The notes beneath the pieces were generated by a model. That model searched no databases and had not been told where the DNA came from. It saw only the letters and a program-made list of their open reading frames with translations. From Chloroflexota bacterium (lineage in GTDB: Bacteria > Chloroflexota > UBA11872 > VXOZ01), in assembly GCA_958295775.1 (NCBI GenBank), contig CATQHC010000008.1, positions 1 to 64,000 on the forward strand: a stretch of DNA of 64,000 nt, given 5' to 3'. Within the stretch, counting starts at the first letter, position 1; each line of letters begins with the position of its first letter. A program made the translations under genes and the position numbers. This document shows positions 40,315 to 59,233 of the stretch, one piece after another.

Positions 40315-41178
40315 CTAAGCCACTCCGCAAGCCCGCACCATGAAGTCCGCGAACGGTGTTTCCGACTTCCGCGTGTTGTACTTGTAGCTCGCCTCGTCAA
40401 TGTAGCGGTCTGCCCAATCCAGCGTGTAGTGGTGGTGCTGGCCGGAGATCGCCCGCTTCACCAACGCCCAAAAGCCCTCGATGGTATTCGTGTGGATGCC
40501 GCCGTCGCGCACGTACTCTTTCGAGTGGTTGATGCGCTCGTGATAAATCCAGTCGCGGGCTTCGTTGTAGCCTGGGTATTGGTCGGTAATGAGCATGGCG
40601 CGGGGATCGATGTTGCGGCGCAAGAAGTGATTGATGAGCTTGGTGGTAACACGCGGCGCGGAGATTGCCTTGACCTTGCCACCGCGCTCGACTGCGCCAA
40701 TGATGGGAGCCTTCTTGCTCTCGCGGCGTTGCCCTGGGGTTTTCGGCCCGCGTGGCTTGCCGCCAATGTAGGTTTCGTCCGCTTCAACGATACCGCGTAG
40801 GAACGCGCCGTCCTCTTGCATGGCTTTACGGATGCGCATCGCCATGTACCACGCCGTAGGCTGTGTGAGGTCTAAGTCACGGGCAAGCTGGCAGCTTGAT
40901 ACTGACTTCTTCGCGTTCAACAGGATGGCGATAGCCGCGAACCACTTAGGTAGAGGAATCTTGGTGCCCTGGAAAATTGTGCCAGACGTGACCTTGAATG
41001 CAGACAGGCAATTGTGGCAATTCCAGCGGCCTACGTTCTCGTTGTTCTTGATGCGGCGCGCCACGTCTTCGCTCTGGCAGTAGGGGCAGTAGGGTTTGCC
41101 TTGCCACTTGACTTGCTCTAGTAGGGATATGCAGGAATCCTGGGTACCGAACTGCTGGACGATGCTGATTACGTTCAT
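40315..41178 (-). CDS. IS1595-family (ISXO2-like) transposase
   Basis: From ATG 41178 (AGGAGGT upstream) about 287 residues. The N-terminal zinc ribbon has CPYC and CHNC pairs (WQGKPYCPYCQSEDV, RWNCHNCLSAF). The DDE-type core shows EADETYIGGKPRG (first Asp), ITDQYPGYNEARD (second Asp) and HTNTIEGFWALVKRAI, the family's third acidic region. The frame has 16 extra upstream codons with no ribosome site. The gene fits between the terminal repeats and has no frameshift, so the element may still be active. Confidence 0.95.
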   Translation of the reverse strand: MNVISIVQQFGTQDSCISLLEQVKWQGKPYCPYCQSEDVARRIKNNENVGRWNCHNCLSAFKVTSGTIFQGTKIPLPKWFAAIAILLNAKKSVSSCQLARDLDLTQPTAWYMAMRIRKAMQEDGAFLRGIVEADETYIGGKPRGPKTPGQRRESKKAPIIGAVERGGKVKAISAPRVTTKLINHFLRRNIDPRAMLITDQYPGYNEARDWIYHERINHSKEYVRDGGIHTNTIEGFWALVKRAISGQHHHYTLDWADRYIDEASYKYNTRKSETPFADFMVRACGVA

Positions 41179-41218
41179 GACTTCACCTCCTATAAGTATT
41201 GTACCAAACCCCCTACAG

Positions 41219-41246
41219 GCAGTCAAGTCCTAATCTTATAATTCCC
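41219..41246 (-). repeat. IS right terminal inverted repeat
   Basis: Reads GGGAATTATAAGA-TTAG-GACTTGACTGC on the minus strand, matching the left end. GGAGAATC at 41247-41254 is the target duplication. Confidence 0.9.
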
Positions 41247-45023: not shown

Positions 45024-45250
45024 GCCTCAACTTTCTACGTCTGCGCCTCTGCCAAGTCTTCGGCGCTGAGATCGGTGCGGCGCATCTGCTCCCGATGCTA
45101 CGCTGGGCCTAGCAGAGAATACGCGCGTCTCGGGCCCGTTGCAGGGGGGTCTACAAGTGTGCCATGCTGGAGGCGAGAGGCCCCTGTCAATTGTTGTTGA
45201 CTGCTAATTATACAAACAGAAGCCGGATGACTCGTCCTGGGGGAGCGACT

Positions 45251-46135
45251 ATGCAGAGCTTTCGCGTCACGGCGGTCTCGCTGCGCAGCCGGCCGGCGTC
45301 GCCTCTAGAAAACCTCGACCATCACGCCGCCTGGGTCGCCCGCGCCAAGGCGGACAATCCGGATATCATCTGCTTTCCTGAACTTGGTCTAAGCGGCTAT
45401 TCGATTACTCCGGCAATCTGGGAAGCGTCGGAACCGGTGCCGGGGCCTTCCACGCAGGCGCTCGTCGACCTGGCGCGTGCGCACAACGTCATGCTCGCCG
45501 CCGGTATCGCCGAGAACGACCGCGACATTGTCTATAACACCTACGTAATTGTTGGGCCCGACGGGTATATCGGCAAGTCGCGGAAAATTCATATTCCACC
45601 GGGTGAAGTGGGCTACTGGCGCGGCGGCGGTATTCCCCCGGTGATCGACATCGGCGTCGCCAAAGTCGGCGTGAACATCTGCTTCGACAACTGGCTGCCG
45701 GAGTCCGGCCGCATGGTGGCGCTGCAGGGGGCCGAGGTCATTCTGGCTCCCTATGTCTGGTCGGTCGGCGACTGGGCCGACCCGCCGGACCACGTCAGCC
45801 GCAACCAGGCCTGGAAAGACTACGCCGGCCGCACATTTCCGGCGCGCGCCATCGACAACGGGGTCTTTTTCGTTGCCATCAATGCCTGCGGGCCCCCGCC
45901 CACCGGCGCGAGCACGCACTACAGCAATCCCATGGTCGTGATCTACAATCCCCTGGGGAAACTCGTGGCGGCCTCGCCGGACGAGGCCGGTGATGAGGTG
46001 ATGGTGACCGCCGACCTCGATAAGCAGCTCCTCGCGGAACGACGCTCGCAAGGCGTCTTTCATCCCCGCTTCCGCCGACCGGAATTATACGGCCTGCTGG
46101 CGGAAGGCGACATCGGCCCGCAAGACCCACGCTGA
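45251..46135 (+). CDS. Carbon-nitrogen hydrolase (nitrilase/amidase superfamily)
   Basis: About 294 residues from ATG 45251 (GGGGGAG upstream). The catalytic triad is visible: Glu44 (CFPELGLSG), Lys112 (SRKIHIPPGE) and Cys144 (VNICFDNWLPE). It likely hydrolyses an amide, possibly a carbamoyl compound; the substrate is unclear. The protein ends with a beta-strand region (EVMVTADLDKQLLAERR) typical of the superfamily. It is a single gene, unrelated to its neighbours. Confidence 0.92.
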   Translation: MQSFRVTAVSLRSRPASPLENLDHHAAWVARAKADNPDIICFPELGLSGYSITPAIWEASEPVPGPSTQALVDLARAHNVMLAAGIAENDRDIVYNTYVIVGPDGYIGKSRKIHIPPGEVGYWRGGGIPPVIDIGVAKVGVNICFDNWLPESGRMVALQGAEVILAPYVWSVGDWADPPDHVSRNQAWKDYAGRTFPARAIDNGVFFVAINACGPPPTGASTHYSNPMVVIYNPLGKLVAASPDEAGDEVMVTADLDKQLLAERRSQGVFHPRFRRPELYGLLAEGDIGPQDPR

Positions 46136-46742: not shown

Positions 46743-48257
46743 ATGAATCGCCCGGTGGGCATTGAGACTGAGTACGGCATGCTCTGCGCCAACGAGTCGC
46801 AGAAAGTGGACTTCGCCTATGAAGCGGCTATGCTGGTCCGCAGCGCGCCCCTGGCGGAGTGCTTTCGCGGGTGGGACTATGCCGCGGAGGACCCGCGCCT
46901 AGACCTCCGCGGCACGCGGGTCGAGCGCCTCGATCAGGAGCCCCACGACCTGCGCGGCAACGCCGCCAAGAGCAAACAGCTATCCCGCCGGGAACTCCTG
47001 GCCGACACCGTGCTTGCCAACGGCGCGCGTCTCTACAACGATCACAACCATCCCGAATACTGCACGGATGCGTGCCTCTCGCTCGCCGATCTCGTGGCGC
47101 ACGACAAAGCCGGCGAGCGTGTGGTCTTTCGCGCGCAGCAGGCCCGGAACGCCGCCATCGGCTCCGAATCTCACGTGCGCCTTGTCAAGAATAACTCCGA
47201 CTACCACGGGCGCAGCTACGGTTGCCACGAGAACTACCTGGTCAGCCGCGCGGTGTCGCTAAACTATCTGATTGCCGCGTGCATCCCTTTCTTCGTCACC
47301 CGTCAGATCTACGCAGGCGCGGGCAAAGCCGCCTATGAGACGGCAAAGAGCCGCACGGGCGGTTTCCAGATCAGCCAGCGCGCGGACTTCTTCGAGACCG
47401 AAGTCGGCATCAACACCACCACCAAACGCCCTATCTTCAATACGCGTGACGAACCGCACGCCAATCCGCAGAAGTACCGCCGGCTGCACGTCATCATCGG
47501 CGATGCCAATTGCTCGGAATTTGCCACGGCCCTGCGCGTGGGCGCCACGGCCTTGCTGCTCGATCTCGTGGAGGACGGGGTGGCGCCGCGCCTGCAATTA
47601 CAGCAACCGGTGCAGGCGTTGCAGACAGTCTCGCGCGACCTCGAACTGCAGCAGCCGCTGGCAATGACCGGCGGCGCCACCATGCGCGCGATCGACATCC
47701 AGCGCCGCTATTGGGAAGCCGCCCAAAGGTACCGCGGCCGCGACGCGGAGACTGACTGGGTACTCAATGAATGGGGCGCCGTCCTCGATCTGCTCGACAC
47801 CAACCCGACGCGATTGCGCGACCGCCTAGACTGGGTAGCCAAGCTGGCGCTCTTCGCGCAAGTCAGCGGCGATACCGCCATCAACTGGGAAGATCCGTCC
47901 GTGCTCCGGCTCGATCTCGCGTACCATCTTGTCGATCCTCACGTGAGTCTCTACCATACGCTCGCCCGCGCGGGACGCATGCATCGAATCGTGACGGACG
48001 CTGACATTGACAGGGCCGAGCATACGGCGCCCCAAGGCACGCGGGCAACGGTCCGGGCGGCCTGTATTGCGAAGTTCGCCCCGCACATTACCGAAATGGA
48101 GTGGGGCTCGATTACTTTTCAGCACAACGGAACGTCATTCAGCCTCGGCCTCAACGAACTATGGGGAGACACCGTAGAGAGGCAACAGAGAATGGTGGAT
48201 GCGTGTCAGACAATCGCAGACCTCTACCAAGCAGTGCAACAAGGAGGCGGCGCGTGA
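46743..48257 (+). CDS. dop: Dop, Pup deamidase/depupylase
   Basis: 504 residues of the Pup-ligase/Dop family. VGIETEYGMLC starts the ATP-binding sheet. Asp100 in NGARLYNDHNHPEY is the catalytic Asp position. Family blocks are LVKNNSDYHGRSYGCHENYL, PFFVTRQIYAGAG, FQISQRADFFETEVG and RPIFNTRDEPHANPQKYRRL with HVIIGDANCSE. An insertion after the first strand (WDYAAEDPRLDLRGTRVERL) matches the Dop-specific loop region and favours Dop over PafA. Dop removes Pup from proteins and, where Pup ends in Gln, deamidates it. It overlaps the pup start by four bases, as in actinobacterial dop-pup pairs. Confidence 0.88.
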   Translation: MNRPVGIETEYGMLCANESQKVDFAYEAAMLVRSAPLAECFRGWDYAAEDPRLDLRGTRVERLDQEPHDLRGNAAKSKQLSRRELLADTVLANGARLYNDHNHPEYCTDACLSLADLVAHDKAGERVVFRAQQARNAAIGSESHVRLVKNNSDYHGRSYGCHENYLVSRAVSLNYLIAACIPFFVTRQIYAGAGKAAYETAKSRTGGFQISQRADFFETEVGINTTTKRPIFNTRDEPHANPQKYRRLHVIIGDANCSEFATALRVGATALLLDLVEDGVAPRLQLQQPVQALQTVSRDLELQQPLAMTGGATMRAIDIQRRYWEAAQRYRGRDAETDWVLNEWGAVLDLLDTNPTRLRDRLDWVAKLALFAQVSGDTAINWEDPSVLRLDLAYHLVDPHVSLYHTLARAGRMHRIVTDADIDRAEHTAPQGTRATVRAACIAKFAPHITEMEWGSITFQHNGTSFSLGLNELWGDTVERQQRMVDACQTIADLYQAVQQGGGA

Positions 48258-48478
48258 CGTGGTATGCTGGGAACAGACCGCAGAAGGTAGGCCCCGGAAG
48301 TGCAGGAACCGCGAATTTGACTCAGCAGCATTTGCGAACCGCAACGGCAGGTACCGAAACGCCGACGGAGACGCCCACAGAGGCGCCGGACAAGACCGAA
48401 GCCGACGATCTCGATGAAGAGATCAAGCGCATCATTCGCGAGGTCCCCGACCCGACGCCGCAACCGGGCGGCGAGTAG
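48254..48478 (+). CDS. pup: Pup, prokaryotic ubiquitin-like protein (ends GGE)
   Basis: A 74-residue protein from GTG 48254 (AAGGAGG six bases upstream), overlapping the dop stop. The N-terminal half is basic and disordered; a Thr/Pro/Glu linker (TETPTETPTEAP) follows; then an acidic helix, ADDLDEEIKRIIREV, and the tail PDPTPQPGGE. The final Gly-Gly-Glu is the Pup conjugation end, needing no deamidation. In ordinary Pup the C-terminal helix runs on into a stretch ending KGGQ or KGGE; here it is cut short by prolines. Position between dop and pafA strongly supports the call. Confidence 0.88.
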   Translation: MTWYAGNRPQKVGPGSAGTANLTQQHLRTATAGTETPTETPTEAPDKTEADDLDEEIKRIIREVPDPTPQPGGE

Positions 48479-48723
48479 TCTCAGCCGGCTCAGCGAAATA
48501 CGCTTTGCCTATAACGCTGGCGTGGGCAATCGCGTTTACCCGCACATTGCGTGGGCCCGTATGCGTTCAATTTGTGCGCATCCGCTCTACATGGTTTTCG
48601 TGAAAGTAGCGCATTCATTCCTTCTCGATAGTTTCCGTCAATTGTGCAAACCTCCCGCGCTCGCACATAAGACAACGGTGTAAGACATGCCCGCCACACC
48701 ATCGCTCTCTTCGGATACCTAGC

Positions 48724-50238
48724 ATGGAAGACGCACTGTTTGGCACAGAAATTGAATACGGCTGCATCGGCAGCGTGCAGCCCATACGCGCCGCCCAGCA
48801 AGTCAAGGATGCCATCTTCCGCGATTGCCGGTTCGGACTCATAGACCCGCCGCCGCGCGAATGGGGCGAGGTGCCGGGCAACGGCGGCTTTCTTTTCAAC
48901 GGCGGGCGCATGTACCTGGACTTGGGCCATCTGGAGCACGCCACCGCGGAATGCCGTACCTTGACGGACATCGTGGCCCACGAGCGGGCCGGCGAGAACA
49001 TTGTCAACCAGGCTGCGCAGGCCGCCGAACTCACGTCACAGGCCTACTTCGTCAAGAACAACACCGACTATTTCGGCAATACGTTCGGCTACCACGAGAA
49101 CTATTGCATCCGTCAGAGTCCCTACGATAGCGCGCTGGTGGACGGCATGCTGCCGTTTCTCGTTACCCGCCAAATCTATGCCGGCGCCGGCTGCCTGCTG
49201 CCGCGCGGCGAGGACACCCCGGCCGCCTTCGCGCTCTCTCAGCGCGCACAGTTCGTGACGATAGACGTGAGTCACCGCGTGCGGTTTGGTGGTCGGCCCA
49301 TCATCAATCTCCGTGACGAGCCGCTAGCGGAACGCCGGTATCGCCGCCTGCACGTGATCGTGGGCGACGTGAACCGCTCTGAGTTCACTACCGCCCTGAA
49401 GATTGGCACGACCGCCTTGGTTGCGCAACTGCTGGAGCAAGGCTGGAACCCCCAGCTTGCGCTTGCCGATCCCGTGCGCGACCTGCGCCGCATTGCCGCC
49501 ACCACCGGCGGCAATTGGACCGTGGGCACGGAGGACGATAGGTATATACCAGCAACTGAGGTGCAGCGCGTCTATCTCCGTGAGGCCGAGCGCCGTTTCG
49601 CCGGGCGCGACGCGGATACCATTTGGACTCTCGAAAACTGGGCCTGGGTGCTGGACGAACTCGAGCAGGACCCGGCGCGGCTCGACGGCTACCTTGACTG
49701 GGTGACCAAGCATGAGCAGATCAAGCGCTTCGCCGGCGCCGGTCAGGCCTGGACGGACCCGGACCTCATCAAGCTCGATCTCTCCTACCACCAGATAGAC
49801 CCCTCGGTGAGTCTGTTTGACGTTCTGGCAAAGCGGCGCCGCGAACTCCTGTGGGTGGAGAGCGCTGCGGTAGCCGCTGCGGAGCAGAGCGCGCCGACGG
49901 ACACCCGCGCGCACGGGCGCGGCCGGACCCTGCGCGCGCTTGCCGCGGCCGGGGCGGATACGGCGATCCCGTGGCGCGACCTGAAGGGCTACCTGGAAAA
50001 CCTGCTCTGGGACCGCCGCTACTTCTTTCTCGCCTACGACTACATCGACGATTGGCAGGACGTCGCCGCCAACGACAGTTGGGACGTCATACCCTACGTG
50101 CTGGACTGGAAAGCCATCGCGGTCTGCGGCCGGGTGCTGGAAATGCCCGACCCCTTTGCGACGTACAACGAAGAAGCGCAGAATTTTGGGGAGAGCATTC
50201 AGGACATCTTCGAGGAAGAGTTACCAGACACCACCTAA
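48724..50238 (+). CDS. pafA: PafA-like Pup-protein ligase
   Basis: 504 residues of the same family as Dop. The N-terminus FGTEIEYG leads to NGGRMYLDLGHLEHATAEC with catalytic Asp66, without the long Dop-type insert, which favours PafA. YFVKNNTDYFGNTFGYHENY, LPFLVTRQIYAGAG, FALSQRAQFVTIDVS and INLRDEPLAERRYRRLHVIV with GDVNRSE match. PafA uses ATP to link Pup's C-terminal Glu to a lysine of target proteins. The C-terminal part is about 50 residues longer than in the M. tuberculosis enzyme (from GYLENLLWDRRYFFLAYDYI) and ends acidic (QDIFEEELPDTT). It lies 245 bases after pup. Confidence 0.83.
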   Translation: MEDALFGTEIEYGCIGSVQPIRAAQQVKDAIFRDCRFGLIDPPPREWGEVPGNGGFLFNGGRMYLDLGHLEHATAECRTLTDIVAHERAGENIVNQAAQAAELTSQAYFVKNNTDYFGNTFGYHENYCIRQSPYDSALVDGMLPFLVTRQIYAGAGCLLPRGEDTPAAFALSQRAQFVTIDVSHRVRFGGRPIINLRDEPLAERRYRRLHVIVGDVNRSEFTTALKIGTTALVAQLLEQGWNPQLALADPVRDLRRIAATTGGNWTVGTEDDRYIPATEVQRVYLREAERRFAGRDADTIWTLENWAWVLDELEQDPARLDGYLDWVTKHEQIKRFAGAGQAWTDPDLIKLDLSYHQIDPSVSLFDVLAKRRRELLWVESAAVAAAEQSAPTDTRAHGRGRTLRALAAAGADTAIPWRDLKGYLENLLWDRRYFFLAYDYIDDWQDVAANDSWDVIPYVLDWKAIAVCGRVLEMPDPFATYNEEAQNFGESIQDIFEEELPDTT

Positions 50239-50527: not shown

Positions 50528-51943
50528 CTACGACTTCTTGCGCCACACCGTGCCGCCGGGGGCATCTTCCAACGCGATGCCCAGCGCCACCAGCTCATCG
50601 CGCACCTTGTCCGCCAGCGCAAACTGCTTCTCTTTGCGCAGGTCCGCCCGCAGCTCTACCAGCAGGTCGATGAAGGCCCCCGCATCGCCGTCGCCTGTTG
50701 CCAATTCAGCTTCCAGCATCTCTTGCAGGTCGATGCCAATGATGTCGGCGAGGTTCACCAGTGTCTCCTGCGCGGCCTGCAGGGTGGCGGGCAGCGCCCG
50801 CGCGCCGAGGCGATTGATCTCGCGGACAAGTTCGTAGAGTTGGCCCAACGCGCCGGCAGAGTTGAAGTCGCTATCCATGGCGGCAAAGAAGCCGCTCTCC
50901 GCCCGCTCCCTTGCCTGCGCAAGTTCGGCATCCGCGCTGTGCTCGCCGCTGCTCTGCACGCGCAACGCGCCTGTCATACGCCCCATGCCGGCCCGCGCCT
51001 GTTCGAGACTATCCGGAGAATAGGTAAGGGGCGAACGGTAATGCACGGAGAGCAGGTAGAGCCGCAGCACCGGCCCATGGTACTCCTTGAGAATATCCTC
51101 GATGGTGATGAAATTGCCGAGCGAATGGGCCATCTTCTGGCCGTTGATCGTGAGCAGACCGGTGTGCAGCCAGTACTTCGTGAAGGGGCTCTTGCCCGTA
51201 AACGCTTCGCTCTGCGCGATCTCGTTTTCGTGATGGGGGAATATGAGGTCGGCCCCGCCGCCGTGAATGTCGATCTGCTCACCCAGCGTCTCATAGATCA
51301 TGGTGCTGCACTCGATGTGCCAGCCGGGGCGTCCCTGCCCCCAGGGGCTCTGCCACCACGGCTCACCGGGCTTGGCCGGTTTCCACAAGGCGAAGTCGCG
51401 GGGATCGCGTTTGCCCGGCTCCTCATCCACCCGGCCCGAGGCGCCCGCCTGAATGCCGCTCTCCTCGGTCCGCGTTGAGAGCGCGCCGTATTCCCGAAAT
51501 CCCGGCACGGAGAAGTACACCGCATCTTCAACCGCATAGGCTGCCTGCTTCTCGATTAAGCCCTCGATCATTGCGATGATCTGCGGCAGGGTCTCGGTAA
51601 CCTTGGGAAACTCATGCGCCCGCAGCACGTTGAGGTTGCCCATCACGGCATCGTAGGCATCCGTGTACTTTTGCGCCACCTCATCAGCCGTCACGCCCTC
51701 ACGTTCCGCCGCCGCAATGATCTTGTCGTCTACGTCGGTGATATTCTGGATATGCTGCACTTCATAGCCGCAATACGTGAGGTAACGGCGGATCATGTCC
51801 ATAGCCACGAACAAGCGGGCATGGCCGATGTGAGGCTCGCGCTTCGGCGTCATGCCGCATACGTACATCTTGACGTCCTTGCCGTCAAGGGGCGCAAACG
51901 CTTCTCTCTGACCGCCAAGCGTGTTGGATATGCTAAGCGTCAC
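50528..51943 (-). CDS. cysS: Cysteinyl-tRNA synthetase CysS
   Basis: CysS charges tRNA-Cys with cysteine. The class I HIGH motif is [11 protein letters not shown]; zinc ligands fit [16 protein letters not shown] and [10 protein letters not shown]; the KMSKS motif reads KMAHSLGNF, a noticeable variant. The anticodon-binding helices follow. GTG 51943 is preferred (GGAGAGA upstream), overlapping cysE by 11 bases; a longer frame to 51994 lies fully inside cysE. About 471 residues, normal length. It ends the cysE-cysS unit. Confidence 0.95.
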
Positions 51944-52622
51944 GGCATCTCTCCAGCGTCTCCTCGCGCTCCGGGGACGCTCCTTCTTTTTCAAAGCGCG
52001 CCAGCCGCGCTTCCAGGTCTACTACACGTTTCTGCAACCTGTAGAGCGCCTCCGCCATGGGATCGGGCTGCACCACCCGCGCGCTCTCGCCCGTATGCGG
52101 GTCACGCATAGCCACCACGTGCCCCGGCACGCCGACCACAGTGGCATGCGGCGGCACGTCATTTACAACAACGGCGCCCGCGCCGATAACGGTCTCTTCA
52201 CCAACCGTCACGGGGCCCAGGATCTTTGCGCCCGCGCCCACGATGACATTGTCGCACAACGTGGGGTGGCGCTTGCCGGTATGCAGCGTCTGCGCCCCCA
52301 GGGTCACGCCCTGGTACAGCGTGACGTTCGTGCCAACTTCCGCCGTCTCGCCGATTACTACACCCATGCCGTGGTCGATGAAGAGACCCGGCCCCAGCAA
52401 TGCGCCGGGATGGATCTCAATTCCGGTGAGAAAGCGCGCAAAATGGGAGAGAACGCGGGGAAGGACCGGTACTCCCGCGTTCCACAGAGCGTGCGTGAGG
52501 CGATAGAACCAGATAGCGTGCACGCCCGGATAGGCTAGAATGACTTCGATTACGTTGCGCGCAGCAGGATCACGCTCAAGCGTTACACGAATGTCCTGCC
52601 GCAGCGTGTGCAGAATGCTCAT
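51933..52622 (-). CDS. cysE: Serine O-acetyltransferase CysE
   Basis: CysE makes O-acetylserine from serine and acetyl-CoA, the precursor of cysteine. About 229 residues from ATG 52622. The left-handed beta-helix hexapeptides are seen in [55 protein letters not shown] and [20 protein letters not shown]. The catalytic His sits in IDHGMG. The C-terminal tail is a long helix ([20 protein letters not shown]), not the usual CysK-binding Ile end. It overlaps cysS and follows ispF. Confidence 0.94.
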
Positions 52623-55987: not shown

Positions 55988-58453
55988 CTACGCCTGCTCC
56001 ACAAGCACCCGCACCTCTAGGCGCAATTCCTCGCCGTCGCGGTCAACCACCACGGTATCACCCGCGTGGAACTTATCTGCCAGCAAGCCTTCCGCGAGCT
56101 CGTTTTCAATCAGATTTTGAATCACGCGCCGCAGCGGCCGCGCGCCATTGTCAGGATCATAGCCCTGCTCTACCAGTAGTTCCTTGGCATCGTCGGTAAC
56201 TTCCAGCGCAATGTCCTGCTCGGTCAGGCGGGCCTGTACCTCTGCAAGCTGAATATCAACGATGCTAATGATGTCTTCTTTCGACAGATGGCGGAAGACC
56301 ACGACGCTATCCACGCGATTGAGAAACTCAGGACGGAACGTTTTCTTAATCTCCGCCATGACCCGCTCCCGCATCTCTTTGTAGAATTGGCCCTCCGTGC
56401 GGAGGTCCGACGCTTCCAACCTGAAACCAATGGCGGCGTCACGCTTGATGAGGTGCGCGCCGACATTGGAGGTCATGATGAGGATCGTATTGCGAAAGTC
56501 CACCGTGCGGCCCTTGCCGTCGGTGAGCCTGCCGTCTTCCATGATTTGGAGCAGCACGTTGAAGACATCGGGGTGGGCCTTCTCAATCTCGTCCAGCAGT
56601 ACCACCGAGTAGCTGCGCCGCCGCACGGATTCCGTGAGCTGGCCGCCTTCCTCATAGCCCACGTAGCCGGGAGGCGCCCCGACCAGACGCGAGATGGTGT
56701 GCTTTTCCATGTATTCCGACATATCGAGCCGCACCATGGCATCGCTGCTGCCAAACATGAACTCCGCCAGCGCCCGTGCCAGGTACGTCTTACCGGAGCC
56801 GGTGGGGCCCACGAATATGAAGGAGCCAATCGGCCGCTTGGGGTCCTTGAGTCCGGCGCGCGCGCGCCGGACGGCCTTGGAGACGTTGCTGATGGCTTCT
56901 TCCTGGCTGACGACTTTTTCGTGGAGGTTCTCCTCCATGTGGAGCAACCGCGCGGATTCCTCCTGCGCGATGCGGGTCACCGGAATGCCCGTCCACATGG
57001 AGACCACCGTCGCCACGTCCTCTTTCGTAACTTCCGGCCACTTCTCTTCTTTGTCCGGCCAGTCCGATTCCAAGTCTTCTATCTTCTTGCGCAGTTCCGC
57101 TTCTTTCTCGCCCAGCCCGACCGCCTCGTCATATTGGCGGCTCTCGATGGCGTCTTCTTTCTCCCGCACAATGCCGTCGAGATCCTTCACCGCATTGCGC
57201 AATGCGTTCGACGTATTTGCCTGTTGGATGCGCACCCGCGACGAAGCCTCATCGATGAGGTCGATTGCCTTATCCGGCAAAAAGCGATCGGTCACGTAGC
57301 GGCCCGACATTTCCGCTGCTACTTTGACGGCTTCATCAACAATGTGCACCTTGTGGTGCTCCTCATAGCGCTCTTTCACGCCCTGCAGCACCGCGATTGT
57401 CTCCTCGATATCGAGCTCGCGCACGTGCACCGGTTGGAATCTGCGCTCCAGAGCCGCGTCGCGTTCGATGTACTTGCGGTATTCGTCCAGCGTGGTTGCG
57501 CCGATGCACTGCAATTCCCCGCGTGACAGCGCCGGCTTGAGGATATTTGCCGCATCCACCGCGCCTTCCGCGGCGCCGGCGCCGACGAGTGTATGCAACT
57601 CGTCGATAAAGAGCATGCAATCGCCGGACCCGCGAATCTCCTCGAGGATCTTCTTCAGCCGTTCTTCGAATTCACCGCGATACTTGGTACCGGCCACCAG
57701 CGCGCCAATGTCCAAGGTGAGCAACCGTTTGCCAAGCAACGTTTCCGGCACGTCACCTGCGATGACCCGCTGCGCCAGCCCTTCCACAATTGCGGTCTTG
57801 CCAACGCCGGGTTCACCGATCAGGGCGGGGTTATTCTTCGTGCGGCGGGAGAGTATTTGCACCACACGTTCGATCTCCTGCTCACGGCCGATCACCGGAT
57901 CGAGTTTCTCCGCGCGGGCCGCGGCGGTGAGGTCGATGCCCATTTGGTCGATCAGAGGAGTGCGTGAGGAAGCCTGGCGACCGCCACTCTCATGGGTGAG
58001 CCGCGAGGGCTGCTGGCTGACCGATTGAATGACCTGCTGCCGCACTTTCTCCAGGCTCACGCCCAAACTCTCCAGCACGCCTGCCGCAATGCCCTCGCCT
58101 TCACGCACGAGGCCCAACAGCAGGTGTTCGGTGCCGATGTAGTTGTGACCTAAGCGGCGCGCCTCTTCTGCCGCCAGTTCGATAACCTTCTTCGCACGCG
58201 GCGTGAGGCTGATATCCCCCTGATTGACTCGCTCACCGCGTCCGATGATAAACTCCACGGCACTGCGCACTTTGGTGAGGTCCACACCCATGTCGTAGAG
58301 CACCTTCGCGGCAATGCCTTCGCCTTCACGGACGAGGCCCAGCAGCAGGTGCTCGGTGCCGATGTAGTTATGGTTGAAGCGACGGGCCTCTTCCTGGGCA
58401 AGCATGAGAACCCGCTTCGCTCGGTCGGTGTATTTGTCGAACAGGGGGCTCAC
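55988..58453 (-). CDS. clpC: ATP-dependent Clp protease ATPase subunit ClpC
   Basis: ClpC unfolds proteins for ClpP. 821 residues from a GTG start with GGAGAA upstream. Two Clp-N repeats ([20 protein letters not shown] and [20 protein letters not shown]), AAA1 with Walker [11 protein letters not shown] and Walker [16 protein letters not shown], a UVR-like middle region ([20 protein letters not shown]), and AAA2 with [12 protein letters not shown] and [16 protein letters not shown]. It starts four bases inside the preceding Clp-N-only gene (GTGA overlap), so the two are co-translated. No ctsR, mcsA or mcsB is nearby. A Clp protease would be a candidate fate for tagged or damaged proteins. Confidence 0.97.
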
Positions 58454-59148
58454 AACGATTCTCCTTGGCTCACCGCTTGTCTGACCTGTTTCCGCAGTCT
58501 TTGCAGATTCACACCCAAGCCCTGCAAAATGCGTGCTCCAATCCCTTCACCTTCGCGCACCAAGCCTATGAGCAAGTGCCCGGTGCCGATTTGGCTGTGA
58601 CCGAACCGGCGCGCCTCTTCCGCCGCCAACTCGAGCGCCTTTATCGCGCGCGGTGTCAGCCTGACCTCGGTTGCCTCGGCGCGCTCCTCTCGTCTGATGG
58701 GCGCCGCCTGACCACCGGTAGTCTCTAGCGCACTGCGCAACTCAGCCAAGTCCACACCCAGACTTTCCAGCACGGCTGCCCCAATGCCTTCCCCTTCGCG
58801 CAGGAGGCCCAACAACAGGTGTTCGGTGCCGATGTAGTTGTGGTCTAAGCGCCGCGCCGCTTCCGCAGCCAACTCGATCACCTTCTTCGCGCGCGGCGTG
58901 AGGTTGATGTTGCCTGCTTCGCTGCGCTCACCGCGTCCAACGATAAACTCCACGGCGCTGCGTGCTTTGGTCTGATCCACACTCCGGTCGAATAGCGTCT
59001 CGGCGGCAATACCCTCGCCTTCTCGTACCAGGCCCAGCAGCAGGTGTTCGGTGCCGATGTAGTTGTGCTTTAAGCGGCGCGCCTCTTCCTGCGCAAGCAT
59101 GAGTACCCGCTTCGCTCCGTCCGTGTACTTGTCGAACAGTGGACTCAC
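58450..59148 (-). CDS. Stand-alone Clp-N repeat protein (three repeats)
   Basis: 232 residues made of three Clp-N-like repeats and no ATPase: [40 protein letters not shown] and [20 protein letters not shown], each followed by a [20 protein letters not shown]-like segment (the third as [20 protein letters not shown]). The first two are highly similar to ClpC's own N-domain, so the gene arose by duplication. GTG 59148 has GGAGAG upstream. The gene overlaps clpC by four bases, suggesting a regulated ratio. It may bind ClpC substrates or adaptors in place of the ClpC N-domain, an inference. Confidence 0.9.
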   Translation of the reverse strand: MSPLFDKYTDGAKRVLMLAQEEARRLKHNYIGTEHLLLGLVREGEGIAAETLFDRSVDQTKARSAVEFIVGRGERSEAGNINLTPRAKKVIELAAEAARRLDHNYIGTEHLLLGLLREGEGIGAAVLESLGVDLAELRSALETTGGQAAPIRREERAEATEVRLTPRAIKALELAAEEARRFGHSQIGTGHLLIGLVREGEGIGARILQGLGVNLQRLRKQVRQAVSQGESL

Positions 59149-59233
59149 GACAACTCTCCTGGGCTCATCTGCCGCCCCTGACGGCACGCACGCATCCCTG
59201 GAATCGCGAGATCGCTCCTAGGCAGCCCGCCGG

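Follow-up and report, generated by a model that had tools for sequence, protein, structure and literature searches.

We describe a dop-pup-pafA locus that encodes, with a probability of roughly 0.75, a working and reversible system of conjugation with prokaryotic ubiquitin-like protein (Pup) that is independent of the 20S proteasome and of the ATPase Mpa/ARC; this figure covers the conjugation and excludes the fate of the tagged proteins. The locus was found in a 64,000-nucleotide stretch of DNA from a Chloroflexota bacterium (contig CATQHC010000008.1, positions 1 to 64,000), which is referred to as a whole as the window. It recurs in nearly all genomes of the same class, which corresponds to the UBA2235/UBA11872 lineage (PMC10608941), since UBA2235 itself is among the relatives. 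An original prediction made from the window had claimed a complete dop-pup-pafA locus, and all three genes are indeed there, as established by profile matches for the enzymes and by translation for pup. That prediction missed the divergent type of Pup involved.

A divergent Pup and its two partner enzymes

In all 38 readable loci of the class, a small protein is encoded between dop and pafA, with a start near the dop stop and an end 6-549 bases before pafA, and the order dop-pup-pafA is common to all five families of the class. The protein ends in RIIRE[IV]PDPTPQPGG[EQ] in 38/38 loci, with at most two exceptions at positions -14 and -9, I, V or M at -11, and E or Q at -1 (24 GGE, 14 GGQ); in the window the C-terminal residues are PDPTPQPGGE. 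A DNA pattern comprising this tail and a stop codon gave one match per genome in 38 of the 41 class genomes and a reversed control pattern gave none, so pup is not a chance open reading frame (ORF). Purifying selection holds the tail in place, because the proportion of nonsynonymous differences (pN, 0.056) over the last 17 codons lies far below that of synonymous differences (pS, 0.62; pN/pS 0.09), with a pN of 0.33 in the seven codons upstream. The GTG start of the window's pup at 48254 overlaps the dop stop (GTGA) downstream of a perfect AAGGAGG, and is supported by a congener locus (L045) with ATG at the same place.

None of 14 class Pups matched the Pup models PF05639 and TIGR03687, both of which recognized the Pup of Nonomuraea used as a positive control (L182, with ARC, dop and pup; 1.5e-30 and 8.9e-21, respectively). 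Judged by sequence, the Pup of this class is a family outside the Pfam and NCBIfam Pup models. The canonical FVRxYVQKGG[EQ] end is replaced in these proteins, such that the FVRxYVQK second helix gives way to a proline-rich stretch, and the N-terminal arm is variable and rich in P, T and E, with ~80% disorder-promoting residues. Similar systems have probably been overlooked in annotation, because the standard Pfam and NCBIfam models miss this new family. The pup tail was also sought in viral contigs, where none was found. One contig deposited UNVERIFIED as 'Bacteriophage sp.' (MT835496.1; L183) carries an actinobacterial-type dop and a pup ending in GGQ; it is probably a bacterial contig and served only as a second view of the canonical Pup tail.

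The enzymes encoded on either side of pup, Dop (P0001) and PafA (P0002), belong to the Pup-ligase/Dop family (PF03136, cut-off 25 bits) by profile match, catalytic Asp, GS-like cradle motifs and fold. Dop scored 446 bits with TIGR03688 (Dop) versus 360 with TIGR03686 (PafA), and PafA scored 294 bits with TIGR03686 versus 268 with TIGR03688. Both are divergent, since these scores lie below the NCBI equivalog cut-offs (492 for the curated TIGR03688 and 551 for TIGR03686). Both enzymes retain the catalytic Asp together with the motifs E-x-E, KNN, HENY and RDEP. In Dop, the candidate catalytic residue D100 aligns with the catalytic D94 of Acidothermus cellulolyticus Dop, and the Dop-loop motif WDY..EDP..D.RG is present. 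The alpha-loop, which separates ligase from depupylase (PMC7947786), reads VGINTTTK in this protein and is close to Dop. The best solved structure for its AlphaFold model (predicted local distance difference test, pLDDT, 84) was Dop 7oxv, with a template modelling (TM) score of 0.85. In PafA, the candidate catalytic residue D66 aligns with D64 of Corynebacterium glutamicum PafA and is followed by a PafA-type ATAEC; D66, E9 and E11 do not vary among 25 class members. Alignment revealed no Dop-loop in PafA, and its AlphaFold model (pLDDT 78) was closest among solved structures to the PafA-Pup complex 4bjr (TM 0.75). On sequence and model, this protein likely has ligase activity. No inserted membrane helices were found in the class enzymes, the maximum 19-residue hydropathy being 1.0-1.7 in 25 PafA and 0.9-1.9 in 14 Dop proteins, with continuous alignment.

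One groundwater metagenome-assembled genome (MAG; G030) additionally encodes a third member of the Pup-ligase family, which is shorter (479 aa; L073:9653-11092, minus strand), and a Cdc48-like tandem AAA protein (L115:1294-3453, minus strand).

Class-wide distribution and searches for proteasome genes

Two Pup-ligase genes, dop and pafA, occur in 39/41 class genomes, and no Pup ligase was found in 365 other sampled Chloroflexota; in the phylum sample (n = 400), the 34 positive genomes were all among the 35 class members drawn. Of the two exceptions, G007 is 76% complete, while G020, a well assembled 1.9-Mb genome that is 93% complete, has no dop, pup or pafA and probably lost the locus for real. 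G020 offers a natural comparison for the role of the Pup system. Judging by isolate names and known projects, the Chloroflexota MAGs that form the named relatives come from sponges, lakes, groundwater and soil.

The original prediction had noted the lack of any proteasome gene in the 64 kb. This holds well beyond the window: neither a convincing 20S pair nor an Mpa/ARC above cut-off was found in the window's own genome (3.42 Mb, 9 contigs, 95% complete) or in the 41 class genomes, and a genome-wide and class-wide search for a split locus, with the proteasome encoded elsewhere, found none. PF00227, which detects HslV as well as 20S subunits and, like the other searches, gives matches in control genomes, had no match in the window's genome, where the Mpa/ARC model TIGR03689 retrieved nothing beyond AAA cores, FtsH among them, far below its cut-off. 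In the class, no protein exceeded that cut-off (0/41 genomes), and all matches were limited to the AAA core. The OB domain PF16450, which gives matches in C. glutamicum, produced only two borderline 22-bit matches in the class, in 447-aa frames. No 20S proteasome stands beside the Pup system in any of the 41 genomes, and PF00227 is absent from 38 of them, including one assembled as a single 3.0-Mb contig in which both enzymes are present (G019).

The PF00227 matches in the remaining three genomes are weak, and none is a linked 20S. The match in G014 and G012 was rejected as a 20S subunit, being a 246-aa Ntn-hydrolase-like protein that scores 41 bits. This proteasome-fold protein (L035:1243-1983, minus strand) lies downstream of a 166-aa ORF that by eye resembles SocA/Panacea. 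The match in G027, a soil MAG with 6% contamination, is a PrcA-like fragment at the edge of a contig (L037); it was rejected as a working 20S and is probably an actinobacterial contaminant. HslV-like matches are present elsewhere in Chloroflexota, and none was found in this class.

Gene neighborhood and possible fates of tagged proteins

PafA would phosphorylate Pup on the side chain of its C-terminal Glu and then join it to target lysines. Dop would take Pup off again and, in members with a Gln-ended Pup, would deamidate it first. The tag itself would be a divergent, disordered Pup consisting of a variable arm and a near-invariant tail to which both enzymes have to bind. The analysis shows which genes are present and in what order, their conservation and selection, the catalytic residues, the fold, and the absence of 20S and Mpa/ARC; the Pup chemistry of PafA and Dop is presumed by analogy with the family. 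Dop has been kept though 24/38 Pups already carry a C-terminal Glu and so require no deamidation; tag removal therefore seems to matter, and this retention favours a reversible mark. Since the tag kit is complete in the absence of both the proteasome and its unfolding motor, the usual readers of the tag, the tag must do something else in this class, and we lean slightly towards a non-degradative, reversible mark. It may be, with odds a little short of even, that the class possesses a free-standing modifier system in which the new Pup family is the signal itself, is read by something other than the proteasome or its ATPase, and forms a class-wide signature trait.

Several points weigh against a working conjugation system. 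Conjugation activity is predicted from the genes, and MAGs make up nearly all of the class genomes. The PafA-like enzyme has diverged strongly, at 30% to the solved PafA, and its alpha-loop (VSHRVRFGG) is typical of neither Dop nor PafA and was modelled with low confidence. A tree with three actinobacterial references settled neither one-to-one orthology with actinobacterial Dop and PafA nor the question of a shared versus a repeated Dop/PafA split.

The surroundings of the locus (Table 1) bear on how tagged proteins might be handled. The flanking nitrilase-family gene and cysS, and a clpC placed about 6 kb away, were correctly described at the outset. The window's clpC sits in a housekeeping run, cysS-cysE-ispF-ispD-radA-clpC, an order that is also known from Firmicutes, and the hint towards ClpC is weak because clpC belongs to this cluster. 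A functional link between Pup and the nearby clpC was considered and is unsupported, the proximity of clpC to dop being limited to the window's genus. A stand-alone 245-aa Clp_N-repeat protein (PF02861, 1e-52; 58450-59187, minus strand) overlaps the clpC start by 4 bases, and we take it to resemble mycobacterial ClpC2-type proteins. An IS1595-type transposase (40315-41226, minus strand) lies ~5.5 kb upstream of dop.

Table 1. Coordinates of the dop-pup-pafA locus and neighboring genes in the window
Feature	Position	Strand	Details
dop, predicted depupylase/deamidase of Pup	46743-48257	+	504 aa; PF03136 511 bits, 3e-153
Shine-Dalgarno AAGGAGG of pup	48241-48247	+	6/6 match to AGGAGG
pup, divergent prokaryotic ubiquitin-like protein	48254-48478 (GTG to TAG)	+	74 aa, translation; C-terminus GGE
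Conjugation tail, last 16 codons of pup	48428-48475	+	RIIRE[IV]PDPTPQPGG[EQ], near-invariant
pafA, putative Pup-protein ligase, LDLGHLEHATAEC motif	48724-50238	+	504 aa; PF03136 368 bits, 8e-110
CN_hydrolase gene (flank)	45164-46135		Profile match
cysS (flank)	50528-51994		Profile match
clpC	55988-58453		~5.7 kb past pafA

A possible though doubtful alternative is that Pup acts as a degron recognized by a housekeeping AAA+ protease (ClpCP, ClpXP, FtsH or Lon), most plausibly ClpCP, with ClpC (or ClpX, FtsH or Lon) threading the arm in place of Mpa. The long, disordered Pup arm would suit threading, and general candidates for a reader are encoded, comprising ClpX with a single ClpP encoded beside it, Lon, FtsH, ClpB and two ClpC-like Hsp100s, namely ClpC and a divergent paralogue found throughout the class (G000:C9, L148:4847-7348; L149, L153, L155, L156 and L157). 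The divergent Hsp100 encoded 8-10 kb upstream of dop in family f3 differs from the window's ClpC; it carries an IGF-type ClpP loop and has lost the Clp_N domain. However, f3 supplies the only two (G021 and G024) among eight other class genomes inspected that have an Hsp100 within 10 kb of dop, and none is near dop in G003, G012, G019, G026 and G031. The paralogue lies elsewhere in families other than f3, a match of its type also occurs in the Pup-less G020, and the proximity of the window's clpC is explained by its housekeeping cluster. None of the candidate proteases or unfoldases showed a Pup-specific domain. No gene stays beside dop or pafA throughout the five families, and no conserved neighbor within ~8-10 kb could be retained as a dedicated reader, the f3 Hsp100 type included. 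Of the non-proteasomal or Clp-dependent fate first suggested, the non-proteasomal part agrees with pupylation genes lacking a proteasome, while the choice of ClpC is unsupported. What likelihood is left by the mark and by hand-over to an AAA+ protease falls, with uncertainty, to an unrecognized dedicated reader.

It is improbable that the putative PafA is a second Dop-like hydrolase and not a ligase, or that both enzymes act on bonds other than Pup-lysine. Its PafA score exceeds its Dop score by only 26 bits and its alpha-loop is atypical, but it has no Dop-loop, carries the PafA-type ATAEC, has 4bjr as its best fold match, and is strictly paired with a GG[EQ]-ended protein. We consider it very improbable that this is an ordinary Pup-proteasome system with its proteasome genes encoded elsewhere or lost in assembly; MAGs are incomplete, including the window's own genome at 95%, but no genome (the single-contig one included) yielded a convincing 20S pair or an Mpa/ARC above cut-off, and the controls match. 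Equally improbable is a decaying remnant of a Pup-proteasome system after proteasome loss, to which the missing proteasome and ATPase and the locus-free G020 would point, but most loci encode both enzymes at full length and with their catalytic residues, and the tail is strongly constrained across families that are ~50-55% identical.

Comparison with known systems

Whether Pup has a role beyond that of a proteasome tag has been a question since the recognition of the proteasome-less Corynebacterium, in which ARC still gives a route to unfolding. A class without proteasome and ARC, in which tag, ligase and de-tagging enzyme are yet under selection, is a natural test of pupylation without Mpa and the proteasome. 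As in the actinobacterial Pup-proteasome system of Mycobacterium, a ligase, a depupylase and a small, disordered tag with a GG[EQ] end are encoded side by side. Unlike Mycobacterium, the class lacks prcA, prcB and Mpa, has PDPTPQPGG[EQ] in place of the FVRxYVQKGG[EQ] tail, and keeps the order dop-pup-pafA with no gene between pup and pafA.

UBact systems likewise have a Pup-like tag and a ligase outside Actinobacteria, and are generally accompanied by proteasome genes. A Pup-like tag and ligase outside Actinobacteria are also shared with Leptospirillum (Nitrospirae; PMC3511204). A 2020 survey places pupylation in Actinobacteria, Nitrospirae and, sporadically, other phyla, with Chloroflexota not listed (PMC7947786), and no link of Chloroflexi with a pupylation locus was found in the open-access papers searched. 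The ligases of Plesiocystis and Rhodopirellula, which have no proteasome genes linked to them, contain four inserted membrane helices (Iyer 2008, PMC2588565), and some Planctomycetes possess only one Dop/PafA homologue (PMC7947786). The class resembles Plesiocystis and Rhodopirellula in having Pup and ligase outside Actinobacteria without linked proteasome genes, and differs in its two separate, soluble enzymes.

Corynebacteria have no 20S subunits and have kept the ATPase (PMC3511204), and in C. glutamicum the system is reported to serve ferritin disassembly, ARC being believed to unfold the pupylated protein and leave it undegraded (PMC8223512). Like C. glutamicum, the class has Dop, Pup and PafA but no 20S subunits; it differs from corynebacteria, which keep ARC as a reader, in lacking ARC and in a Pup outside the known models. 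Corynebacterium and Plesiocystis/Rhodopirellula are partial precedents. While it matches neither the Pup-proteasome system nor the described Pup models, the class system should, by its anatomy, work like pupylation.

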